DNA from: [Bacillus] selenitireducens MLS10 | GTDB taxonomy: Bacteria; Bacillota; Bacilli; Bacillales; Salisediminibacteriaceae | Assembly: GCF_000093085.1 (NCBI RefSeq) | Contig: NC_014219.1 | Location: 496,001-560,000 of the forward strand | Length of the DNA: 64,000 nt | Reading direction: 5' to 3' | Shown here: positions 41,758 through 45,139 of the stretch, piece by piece | Layout: the number at the start of each line of letters is the position of its first letter | Position numbering within the stretch: the first letter of the stretch is position 1 | The notes under the pieces: generated by a model | Seen by the model: only the letters and a program-made list of their open reading frames with translations | Database searches by the model: none | Told to the model about the DNA's origin: nothing | Position numbers and translations under genes: made by a program

Positions 41758-42140
41758 CGTGGGAGATGATCTTGATGGCGTCACTCGGCGGTGGGCTTGG
41801 AGCGGTTGCCCGCTATCACCTTGGACGCCTCATTAAAGCCAGGCTCGATCAGACCTGGCTGCCGAATGCGATGCTGATCGTGAATATCATCGGCTCTTTC
41901 GGGTTGGGTGTGACCCTTGGGGGACTGTTCGGATCGGTGACAGAGACGGATCCGTTGCCCAACCTCTATTTTTTCCTCGCAACAGGCTTTATGGCAGCCT
42001 TTACGACGTTTTCAACATTCAGTACGGAGGCCGTTGGACTGATTCGCACACGTAAATTTTATCCTGCATGTCTTTATATTTCGGTTACGCTCGTCGCGTC
42101 ATTTCTCGTATTCCTGGCCGGCATGTGGCTCACGGTCTGA
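41754..42140 (+). CDS. crcB2: Fluoride channel subunit CrcB/FluC (second)
   Basis: A 128-residue partner of the first CrcB: GGGLGAVARYHLGRLI, GTPNAMLIVNI-like NAMLIVNIIGSFGLG, and the fluoride-gate region TGFMAAFTTFSTFSTEAV. Four helices. Start overlaps the crcB1 stop by four bases, so equal synthesis of the pair is expected. Confidence 0.93.
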   Translation: MTWEMILMASLGGGLGAVARYHLGRLIKARLDQTWLPNAMLIVNIIGSFGLGVTLGGLFGSVTETDPLPNLYFFLATGFMAAFTTFSTFSTEAVGLIRTRKFYPACLYISVTLVASFLVFLAGMWLTV

Positions 42141-42155
42141 AACGCGCTGCAAAAG

Positions 42156-42187
42156 AACCCCCGATTCATTGTTGAATCGGGGGTTAC
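42156..42187. terminator. Terminator between crcB2 and the BCCT gene
   Basis: AACCCCCGATTCA / TGAATCGGGGGTT with TTCTTTTG on the minus side. Best suited to end the BCCT transcript, and able to act on both convergent genes. Confidence 0.8.
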
Positions 42188-42194
42188 ATGTGCG

Positions 42195-44144
42195 TTATTT
42201 ATCTTTTTTCTCATCGTCCGGTGATTCAAGCTCACCGTTTAACTGTTCACCGAGGTCATCACGGAGATCTTCGTAGATCTTTTCCTTGAACTCCTCATAG
42301 ACTTCTTCTTTGATATCGTCGTAGACTTCGTCTTTGACCTGCTCATAGACTTCTTCTTTCACTTTGTCGTAAGCTTCGCCTTTAAAGTCTTCATAGGCTT
42401 CTTCCTTCATCTGTTCATAGACTTCGTCTTTGACGCGGTCGTAGGTTTCGTCTTTAAACTCATCGTACACTTCGTCTTTGAAGTCATCGTAAACTTCCTC
42501 TTTCATCTGGCCGTAGACTTCTTCTTTCATTTCATCATAGGCTTCTTCACGGAACTCATCGTAGAATTCATCTTTCATGCCGCCGTAGACTTCATCTTTG
42601 ACGCGTTTCGTCTGTTTGCGCTGCGTCTTGATTTTGTCTTTCTTCATATCCTTTGTCATCATGATCAGAAGGCTGAAGACCATCACGACCATGATCATGG
42701 CAAACGGCAGCGCTGCGACAATCGAAGCGGTCTGAAGCCCTTCAAGTCCTCCGCTGATGAGAAGGACACTGGCGGTTCCGGCAATGAGGAATCCCCAGAT
42801 GACTTTGATTGTAAGCTTTGGACTCAGACTGCCCTGTGACGTCATCGCACCGAGTACATACGAGGCAGAGTCCGCCGATGTGATGAAGAAGATCAGGATC
42901 AGAATCACGGCAATGACACTCGTAATCATGGAGATTGGCAGTTCACCGAGAGTAGCGAAGAGAGCAAGCTCGACCTCGTTCATGACAAGGTCACCGATCT
43001 CATCATTGCCGCCCATAATCAGGCTGAGCCCGGTGCCGCCAAACGTGGTAAACCAGAGCGCGCCAAGGAGTGAAGGGACAATCAGAACACCTGCGACAAA
43101 TTCCCGGATCGTACGCCCCCTTGAAATCCGGGCGATGAAGATCCCCATAAACGGCGCCCAGGAGATATGCCAGGCCCAGAAGAAAATCGTATTATTTCCA
43201 AGCCATTCACCGTCCCCGAACGGGTTTAAGTCAAAGCTCATCTGAACGACATTGGACATGTAATTCCCGAGAACCGAGACAAAATTCTGGGCAATAAAGA
43301 GCGTCGGGCCAACAATAATCACGAAGAACAAAAGCAGCCCTGCCAGAATCAGATTCGTGGTACTGAGAATCTTGATTCCCTTGTCGACGCCTGTCGCGGC
43401 AGAAAAGATAAACAGGAACGTCACAATGGCAATGATGATAAAGTTGACGGTCGCATTGTTTGGAATCCAGTCAACCAGGTAGGACAGCCCGCCGGTAATC
43501 TGCAGGGCACTGAGACCGAAGGTGGTCGCAACCCCTGTGGATGTGGCCAAAACGGCGAGAACGTCGATGGCTTTTCCGAATCCGCCATAGGCACGGTCAC
43601 CGAGAATCGGTTGAAATGCCGAGCTGATGAGAGCCGGCTGGTCTTTTCGGAACTGAACATATGCCAGCGTCAGTGCTACGAGCGAGAAGATCGCCCATGG
43701 GTGGAGTGCCCAGTGGAAGACCCCGTACCTGAGACCTGCTTCAGCGCGGACGGCATCACTTTGACCTATGTAATCCGGATGCGGATCGTAATAATAGAGA
43801 ATCGGTTCTGCGACACCCCAGAATACGAAGCCGACACCGATCCCTGCGGCAAAGAGCATGCCGAGCCAGGAGAAAAAGCGGAACTCCGGTTTCTCATCGG
43901 GCTTCCCGAGCTTCAGTTTACCGAAGGGACTGATGGCGAGAAACAGTACAAAGGCAATAAAAAACGCGGTGACGAGCATGTAGAACCAGCCGAAGTTATC
44001 AAGGGTGAACGCAAGTGCCACGCTTGATACATTGGCAAGATTCTCCGGAAAAAATAATCCCCAGAGAACAAAAGCAAGAACAATGGGTGCTGAGATGTAA
44101 AAGACAATGTTTGGATTTTTCGTTTCGTACGAATACTTTTCCAT
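42195..44144 (-). CDS. BCCT-family glycine betaine/choline transporter with octad-repeat tail
   Basis: Na+-coupled importer of compatible solutes, 649 residues. Twelve-helix core (about 15-495) with FGKLKLGKPDEKPEFRFFSWLGMLFAAGIGVGFVFWGVAEP and the Trp-rich segment FFWAWHISWAPFMGIFIARISRGRTIREF. The C-terminal cytosolic tail is exceptional: residues 516-627 are 14 consecutive eight-residue units of the form K-(D/E)-E-x-Y-x-x-hydrophobic, ending in an acidic tip. In BetP the C-terminal tail senses osmotic stress; a similar role here is inference. A SigB-like promoter and an unusual leader hairpin precede it. Confidence 0.93.
   Translation of the reverse strand: MEKYSYETKNPNIVFYISAPIVLAFVLWGLFFPENLANVSSVALAFTLDNFGWFYMLVTAFFIAFVLFLAISPFGKLKLGKPDEKPEFRFFSWLGMLFAAGIGVGFVFWGVAEPILYYYDPHPDYIGQSDAVRAEAGLRYGVFHWALHPWAIFSLVALTLAYVQFRKDQPALISSAFQPILGDRAYGGFGKAIDVLAVLATSTGVATTFGLSALQITGGLSYLVDWIPNNATVNFIIIAIVTFLFIFSAATGVDKGIKILSTTNLILAGLLLFFVIIVGPTLFIAQNFVSVLGNYMSNVVQMSFDLNPFGDGEWLGNNTIFFWAWHISWAPFMGIFIARISRGRTIREFVAGVLIVPSLLGALWFTTFGGTGLSLIMGGNDEIGDLVMNEVELALFATLGELPISMITSVIAVILILIFFITSADSASYVLGAMTSQGSLSPKLTIKVIWGFLIAGTASVLLISGGLEGLQTASIVAALPFAMIMVVMVFSLLIMMTKDMKKDKIKTQRKQTKRVKDEVYGGMKDEFYDEFREEAYDEMKEEVYGQMKEEVYDDFKDEVYDEFKDETYDRVKDEVYEQMKEEAYEDFKGEAYDKVKEEVYEQVKDEVYDDIKEEVYEEFKEKIYEDLRDDLGEQLNGELESPDDEKKDK
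42264..42599 (-). repeat. Fourteen 24-base units encoding octads (KDEVYDEF-type)
   Basis: Units such as KDEVYGGM, KDEFYDEF, KEEVYDDF, KDETYDRV, KEEAYEDF and KEKIYEDL follow each other without a break. Tyr is at position 5 in all 14 and Glu or Lys at position 3. A fifteenth, RDDLGEQL, has lost the Tyr. The DNA units differ at many synonymous sites, so the array is old and kept at protein level. Confidence 0.92.
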
Positions 44145-44153
44145 AAGCAGAAT

Positions 44154-44187
44154 CTATCCGTTAAAGAACCGGATAGCCCCCTTTCGT
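44154..44187 (-). promoter_or_regulatory. Hairpin separating the ribosome site from the BCCT start codon
   Basis: On the minus strand GAAAGGGGG (44187-44179) is followed by the hairpin CTATCCG / CGGATAG (9-base loop), then ATTCTGCTT and ATG. Unfolded, the ribosome site is 34 bases from the ATG; with the hairpin looped out it would be at about normal distance. No other ribosome site is seen. Confidence 0.5.
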
Positions 44188-44248
44188 TATAGGATGATCT
44201 CACAGATAAAAGGAAAATAAGAGCAGTACCCCTTATAATAACTAAACT

Positions 44249-44274
44249 ATACCCCTGTGTCCATCCCCTGAAAC
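44249..44274 (-). promoter_or_regulatory. SigB-type promoter upstream of the BCCT gene
   Basis: Minus strand GTTTCA (44274-44269), 14-base spacer, GGGTAT (44254-44249). This matches the general-stress consensus GTTTAA-N12-15-GGGWAW with one mismatch. Osmoprotectant transporters of Bacillus are often SigB-controlled. Confidence 0.55.
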
Positions 44275-44281
44275 AATCTGG

Positions 44282-45139
44282 TTACAGTGAAATGGAAAAC
44301 ACCGTGTCCGCTATTTCTTCCTCATCGAGGAAGATGGTCAGGTGATATGTGCCGGTATCTGTGAGCGGATCTTCGGAGTCAAGAAGGTCGAGGGTGACCT
44401 CGCTCGATGAAAAGATGCCGAAGCTCCGGTCTCTCGTGATCGCCATCCCGTTACCACTGTCCGTTTCCCGCTCGAGTAGAAGGCGAAAGGAGCGGTCACC
44501 GATGGGCTCATCATGTATAAACAGCAGGTTGATCCGGGCTTCATATTTAACGAAATCGGGCTCGTCCCTGACATCCAACACACCTTCAGGGACTGGATTA
44601 TCATCGGAGAAGACATAAATCCCCGGTTCAAGGGCCGGATTGTATGTCCAGTTCGCAAGAGGGACGTTGACAAGCACGGCAAACAGCAAAGCTGATAGGC
44701 CTGTAATGATTCCGCTTTTCACGGATGCGCCGGAGCGGTAGAATAAAGGTGACGCATTGCCGTGATTCTTCAGGTGCTGAATCCGTCTGTAATAAAGGGC
44801 ATTGGCCTTCAACCCGAATCCGAGATGAAGAAGCGTAAAGCCGGTCAAGATAAAGAGAAGTTGAGAAGAAACGAGGTCTGCCCCTAGTCCGGCTGCATAA
44901 AATAACCAGGGGAGAAACGATGCGCCCGCGACAAACACGCTTTGCAACAGCACATAAAAGATCAGCCAGTCATAGAGGTGCCGGTAAGCGAGCCAAAAAG
45001 GCGTGACTAGGAGTGCTGCAAGGTTAAAACCGCAGTATACAGAAGGTTTTTGGTGGTCTTGCCACTTTGAAGAATAATAGGTATGATTTTGCCCGATGAG
45101 GGGAATGGTATCGGCAGTGCCGTTTATGGGATCGGTCAT
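44282..45139 (-). CDS. DUF2628-like membrane protein
   Basis: A 285-residue protein. The first half resembles DUF2628 proteins: a KPSVYCGFNLAALLVTPFWLAYRHLYDWLIFYVLL segment, about four helices in total and a further one at about 165-185. The last 105 residues form a soluble acidic domain (EPGIYVFSDDNPVPEGVLDV, LTDTGTYHLTIFLDEEE), predicted outside. Start ATG with GGAGGT nine bases upstream; longer in-frame versions would cross the promoter area. Function unknown. Confidence 0.72.
   Translation of the reverse strand: MTDPINGTADTIPLIGQNHTYYSSKWQDHQKPSVYCGFNLAALLVTPFWLAYRHLYDWLIFYVLLQSVFVAGASFLPWLFYAAGLGADLVSSQLLFILTGFTLLHLGFGLKANALYYRRIQHLKNHGNASPLFYRSGASVKSGIITGLSALLFAVLVNVPLANWTYNPALEPGIYVFSDDNPVPEGVLDVRDEPDFVKYEARINLLFIHDEPIGDRSFRLLLERETDSGNGMAITRDRSFGIFSSSEVTLDLLDSEDPLTDTGTYHLTIFLDEEEIADTVFSISL

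Follow-up and report, generated by a model that had tools for sequence, protein, structure and literature searches.

On the reverse strand of the window, i.e. the 64-kb stretch of DNA analyzed here as a whole, lies a gene for a BCCT transporter that ends in a repetitive C-terminal tail (Table 1). Its assignment to the BCCT family, already made in the first-pass annotation, was borne out by a match to PF02028 over the whole profile (1-484 of 485, E 2.7e-185, 616.9 bits vs. a cut-off of 27), and the cut-off of TIGR00842 was passed as well (513.2 bits vs. 407.55). The protein missed the cut-off of the glycine betaine BCCT equivalog NF047988 (604.1 bits vs. 650) and its substrate is therefore not filed as betaine; the transporter is probably an osmolyte importer. 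Both by sequence (phmmer, E ~1e-119, residues 18-514) and by fold, the best PDB match was BetP. The genome (3.59 Mb, one contig) harbors five BCCT genes, only one of which carries the tail: matches of the other four stop at or before query residue 556 (L004 at 499), the tetrad array was not found in the tails of the paralogues L002, L003 and L005, and a search of the genome with the tail returned no second site better than E 0.05. TRF reported the array at periods 24, 48, 72 and 96 and no other tandem repeat in the 64-kb window. Scanning 42100-44600 for promoters and terminators turned up no signal that clearly exceeded chance. Two overlapping CrcB genes (PF02537; 41350-42140 of the window) are convergent with the BCCT gene.

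Table 1. Features of the BCCT transporter gene, in window positions.
Feature	Position	Strand	Basis
BCCT transporter gene, 649 aa	42195..44144	(-)	ORF; PF02028; best PDB match BetP
BCCT membrane core, residues 14-498	42651..44105	(-)	Pfam match limits
His326 in FFWAWHISWAPF, Trp in BetP and outgroup rows	43167..43169	(-)	alignment to BetP
Basic linker after last membrane helix, residues 498-515	42600..42653	(-)	
32 consecutive tetrads, V/I/L/M/F/A/T at every fourth position, residues 515-639	42228..42602	(-)	
14 octads K-[DE]-E-h-Y-x-x-h, residues 516-627, block net charge -29	42264..42599	(-)	in-frame, contiguous
C-terminal array end (units 11-15), best conserved stretch across relatives	42240..42359	(-)	

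The first-pass annotation described 14 contiguous octads with a Tyr in every copy, and this was confirmed, Tyr occupying position 5 in 14/14 units. Position 1 is K in 13 units and R in one, position 2 D/E in 13 and G in one, position 3 E in 13 and K in one, and position 8 is F/M/V/I/L throughout; a degenerate 15th unit lacking Tyr, RDDLGEQL, follows right after the octads at 42240-42263. Recognizing that position 4, just before the Tyr, is also hydrophobic or small in all 14 units (V 8, A 3, F 1, T 1, I 1), we place the underlying period at four: the octad is a tetrad, hydrophobic-[K/Y]-acidic-acidic, with K and Y alternating. The eight-residue unit claimed earlier is thus real as a K/Y octad, but its true period is four, and the residue left as "x" before the Tyr is not a free position. 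Within the 144-residue window tail, V/I/L/M/F pairs occurred only at lags 4, 8, 12 and 16 among lags 2 to 16, with 23 pairs at lag 4 vs. a shuffled mean of 5.0; in a 112-residue block starting one residue after the first K, there were 19 lag-4 pairs vs. a maximum of 13 in 20,000 shuffles. Ahead of the array, the linker has a net charge of +5 over the first 12 tail residues, and among the 40 rows listed for relatives this value was +3 to +9 in most and 0 to +2 in four.

To place the tail among relatives, we assembled an orthologue set of 91 distinct rows (at least 500 bits). Of these, 85 form a subfamily with a WAWH or WGWH motif, and six from outside the order, with Trp for the His, form an outgroup with tails of 3-31 residues and no tetrad run. 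Six of the subfamily rows have a TrkA_C-type tail; among the other 79, at least four consecutive tetrads were present in 76, the exceptions being L135, L059 and L143. The first-pass annotation had named absence of the repeat from all orthologues as a refuting result; the opposite was seen, the repeat running through the whole family, with the orthologue in 33 of 35 genomes and 5-15 octads in all 31 loci read. Across the order, the orthologue was found in 50 of 397 genomes and 24 of 135 genera (E <= 1e-170; the order list includes one extra match, L149, of the WAWW kind). Of the 398 genomes sampled from the class, 59 had a match at 1e-160, and matches outside the order ended at about query residue 505-532, short of the array. 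Two Clostridia metagenome bins (L048, L054) also carry the tetrad tail. The closest named relatives of the gene come from Salipaludibacillus species and Salisediminibacterium halotolerans (L018-L021, L039), a same-genus genome having a tail identical to that of L039, and the window thus likely comes from a haloalkaliphilic Bacillus relative of this group; the named organisms with the gene are largely salt or alkali dwellers, so any link of the tail with salinity is tentative. Nearly tail-less relatives exist (L059 with 10 residues, L143 with 14, a second copy in L036 with 24), so the tail is not essential everywhere in the subfamily. In a tree of 90 rows, built by a quick method and flagged by the program for long branches, 31 rows, 30 of them octad and 1 short, made up a single octad-rich branch with support 100, and the 6 TrkA_C rows grouped in a branch of their own, also with support 100, among the tetrad rows. 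In these comparisons, the tail is confined to one BCCT subfamily and is not a local oddity. Adjacent subfamily BCCT genes, one with a full tail and the other with a 24-residue tail, were seen both in L036 and at G1149:C51:50771-55870, which are probably the same gene pair; it offers a long and a short tail side by side in nature.

The composition of the tetrad was read from the longest run in each of the 76 rows that have one, out of 85 examined without the 6 TrkA_C rows; run lengths ranged from 4 to 36 consecutive tetrads. Position 0 was V/I/L/M/F in 97%, position 1 was K in 43%, Y in 30% and R in 8%, and positions 2 and 3 were acidic in 80% and 77%, respectively. Among 1170 neighboring position-1 residues, K/R stood beside Y/F in 727 cases, the K-K type accounted for 142 and the Y-Y type for 4, the rest involving other residues. 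Over 69 long tails, there were 1120 lag-4 hydrophobic pairs vs. 276 in shuffles, and the spectral peak lay at 88-92 degrees in 50 tails and at 180 degrees, a harmonic, in the remaining 19. Some tails show phase breaks, e.g. L022 with a longest run of 13 tetrads, and the initial part of the Gracilibacillus tails (L044, L047) consists of plain KDEF-type tetrads without Tyr.

The first-pass annotation also held that synonymous diversity among the units showed selection on the protein. Selection on the protein is supported, as dN/dS of the tail was similar to that of the core; codon diversity by itself is weak and would not prove it. Tail/core dN/dS, finite in 8 of the 11 pairs compared, was 0.029/0.026 for the window vs. 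L006, 0.025/0.025 for L101/L102, 0.058/0.018 for L022/L107, and 0.020/0.023, 0.027/0.020, 0.024/0.032, 0.030/0.019 and 0.038/0.026 for the others; these ratios are rough wherever dS is saturated, as in several pairs including the window vs. L006 (1.87 in the core, 2.20 in the tail); L101/L102 and L022/L026 (dS ~0.35-0.42) are unsaturated. The tail is under core-like purifying selection, with dN/dS of ~0.03. In tail alignment A2 (28 rows), units 11-15 contain an invariant Tyr and the majority of the near-invariant columns. Array length changes by whole tetrads: indels within the array keep the phase, with 32 residues between the window and L006, 24 between L020 and L101, 12 between L044 and L047 and 4 between L104 and L103, and indels of 1-3 residues occurred only beyond the array (eleven pairs). 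Repeat slippage by 12 or 24 bases would likewise favor such steps, so phase-keeping alone is no proof of selection. Between-unit codon identity for K, E, V and G is somewhat above that of the core, and part of the array may therefore be a fairly recent duplication. A DNA-level minisatellite without protein constraint was rejected, given that all 14 octad units differ from one another in DNA as well as in protein and that tail dN/dS is close to that of the core.

What structure such a tail might adopt was approached through its geometry. ER/K single alpha-helices are long, charged, low-complexity, helix-prone stretches, and the window tail shares these features; in contrast to them, it is poor in opposite-charge i,i+4 pairs, with only 3 + 3, below the 6.7 each of the shuffles (a synthetic EEEEKKKK control gave 56 + 52), and an ER/K helix was rejected. 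A one-faced amphipathic membrane helix was likewise rejected, the window tail having a spectral power of 0.39 at 100 degrees vs. 34.8 at 90 degrees. Projected on an ideal alpha-helix, the hydrophobic residues of successive tetrads lie +40 degrees apart and complete a 360-degree turn every nine tetrads; a long membrane-lying helix is therefore unlikely, and short local amphipathic patches are possible. The mismatch with the seven-residue coiled-coil period, pointed out in the first-pass annotation, held up in the lag and spectral analyses, where heptad and hendecad coiled coils (3.5/3.67) had a power of 0.41/0.65 vs. 20.2 at the peak (mean of 69 tails); a coiled coil was rejected. According to Hartmann et al. 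(PMC4786415), the periodicity accessible to coiled coils extends up to ~3.9 residues; a 4.0-residue period lies outside this range and, on that account, fits no standard coiled coil. A strict four-residue period kept over >100 residues is thus a structural puzzle.

Given the winding hydrophobic/Tyr stripe, the tails of the three protomers or of neighboring trimers might join through this stripe and through Tyr-Lys contacts, acting as oligomer or cluster glue with regulation being secondary. Tyr-Lys pairs at i,i+4 are indeed frequent (13 + 14, or 27, vs. 2.1 + 2.1, or ~4, in shuffles), conservation is best in the C-terminal units, and the closest solved relative, BetP, is a trimer according to PDB entry titles, which also name K+-upregulated and downregulated states. 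However, the period is beyond the coiled-coil limit and the window tail has no VILMF pair at i+3 or i+7; both speak against such joining, and we consider it unlikely as the main role. Acid-acid pairs at i,i+4 were also commoner than expected in the array (34 vs. 18.1 shuffled). This excess predicts salt-dependent folding: as a helix, the array should be destabilized at low salt and should gain from screening.

In the AlphaFold2 model of the full protein, the last membrane span continues as a confident helix up to ~residue 520 and is followed by helices with pLDDT of 34-49 per ten-residue block; the tail alone, predicted as a single sequence without alignment, also came out as helices, with a mean pLDDT of 52.8. 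Neither of these predicted models counts as evidence for a stable tail fold. With the tail alone as query, no PDB match was better than E 0.18; a formin PDB match (E 1.6e-6) was taken as low-complexity noise, as were weak Pfam/NCBIfam matches of the tail (RGS, EnY2, GvpQ), which were below cut-offs. The low confidence of the models and the net charge of -29 would suit a passive acidic brush, i.e. a disordered polyampholyte for solubility or spacing at high salt in line with the acidic bias common to halophile proteins, its pattern arising from composition and repeat slippage, and so would the related tetrad stretches in unrelated proteins described below. Such a brush would not need an exact four-residue period, a K/Y alternation this strict (KY and YK 727, YY 4 of 1170) or a dN/dS of ~0.03, nor does it sit well with a tail on only one of five BCCT paralogues; we doubt that it accounts for the tail.

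A tail-profile search matched 27 of 199 order genomes, the matches on non-BCCT proteins including secreted, amylase-like, lipoprotein-like and surface proteins; at the phylum level, 5 of 398 genomes had a match, four of them weak (E 3.9e-5 or worse), the loci read being those other than L207-L209. No other transporter with a tail-profile match was seen among the loci read from the 199 order genomes. A tail module common to several transporters was not supported: in the nine non-BCCT loci read, the matches fell on stretches of low complexity or with a different kind of repeat. The amylase-like L196 and the lipoprotein-like L206 contain tetrad stretches such as QELKEEVKQELKEE.

Two further features of the subfamily stand out. 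At the motif position of His326, which we take to be W374 of the BetP substrate site, His was found in 85/85 subfamily rows and Trp in 6/6 outgroup rows; judging from this W-to-H change in the WAWW motif, the substrate may differ from betaine. In addition, a nested clade of 6 rows (L061, L062, L144-L147) has a TrkA_C-type domain following a shortened tail. The domain was identified as PF02080 by profile scan in L061 (E 6.5e-15) and L062 (E 4.1e-15), and L144-L147 were typed by sequence; in the window protein, the Pfam scan found no PF02080 domain. TrkA_C/RCK_C is a regulatory ligand-binding domain of K+ transport; its presence on a BCCT importer marks a possible nucleotide or ion control point. 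These Shouchella-type proteins belong to the same subfamily as the window protein, are nested in its tree, and keep the attachment point and a short tail segment, but have TrkA_C in place of the long tetrad array. The corresponding genes are at L061:4974-6869 and L062:4977-6872 and in L144-L147. That one clade has a domain at this position, and that conserved C-terminal units are preceded by an array of variable length, might suggest spaced, near-identical docking sites for another cytosolic protein or a ligand; no partner was found, and in the loci read from the 199 order genomes the tail profile hit no further transporter, leaving docking as a highly doubtful explanation.

BetP (Corynebacterium glutamicum) is of the same BCCT family and has a C-terminal domain at the same place. 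According to a review (PMC10710835), the C-terminal domains that extend into the cytosol in ProP, BetP and OpuA are important for osmosensing, and those of BetP change their contacts in response to cytosolic K+. The first-pass annotation had set the tail next to a BetP-like C-terminal regulatory region, and this location agrees with the alignment to BetP and with that text. There remain differences between the two proteins as evidenced by: 1) the BetP alignment reaches only to residue 514, short of the array, and no relation was found between the array and the BetP C-terminus; 2) the window array, unlike the BetP domain, is acidic and periodic; 3) the substrate-site Trp of BetP is His here. 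ProP, too, is presented in that review (PMC10710835) as an osmolyte importer whose C-terminal domain extends into the cytosol and is tied to osmosensing; however, it belongs to another transporter family (MFS), and its C-terminus is described as a coiled coil, whereas the period here is 4.0 and not 3.5.

The position of the tail, its acidity, its confinement to one subfamily, the constraint on it and the TrkA_C swap point to a regulatory part. With moderate confidence, we surmise that the tail is a cytosolic osmoregulatory extension of an osmolyte importer, responding to ionic strength. The reading in the first-pass annotation is thus partly supported, its salt sensing, lipid binding and long helix being conjectural. 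Folding or contact that depends on ionic strength would be the most economical mechanism, one to which we give roughly even credence. The last membrane helix would continue into the basic linker and then into the acidic h-[K/Y]-[D/E]-[D/E] array, where acidic residues stacked at i,i+4 would make the array repel itself. At low ionic strength, the array would be held open, or against the basic linker and the cytosolic face of the transporter. Upon osmotic upshock, a rise in cytosolic K+ would screen the charges, and the array would fold or shorten; its contacts with the linker and with neighboring protomers would then change, with release of transport as the probable direction of the effect. The number of tetrads would tune the strength or the set point of this response. 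A bolder version, which we rate as very improbable, would make the array an ionic-strength gauge with an undescribed helical packing, in which exact 4.0-residue repeats, stabilized by alternating Tyr-Lys rungs, would assemble between the protomers of the trimer only when salt screens the acidic ridges, the repeat number being an evolvable gain setting.

It has long been asked how osmolyte importers detect the salt inside the cell, and the question has been studied in a few model proteins whose tails are short and irregular. With a tail that can be counted in units, a natural TrkA_C swap and nearly tail-less relatives, the relation of tail length to set point is directly testable in this subfamily. 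Among open-access papers, searched by title and start of abstract, there was none on this tail.

Other arrangements of the repeat were also seen. The diverged orthologue L134 has the tetrad order K-h-acid-acid with a 12-residue super-period. In the 240-residue tail of the Texcoconibacillus orthologue (L023, L215), the octads give way to a long acidic extension that is probably disordered. L205, a secreted and apparently wall-anchored protein, has about eleven GDVYNGVP-type octads, another Tyr octad repeat in an unrelated context.
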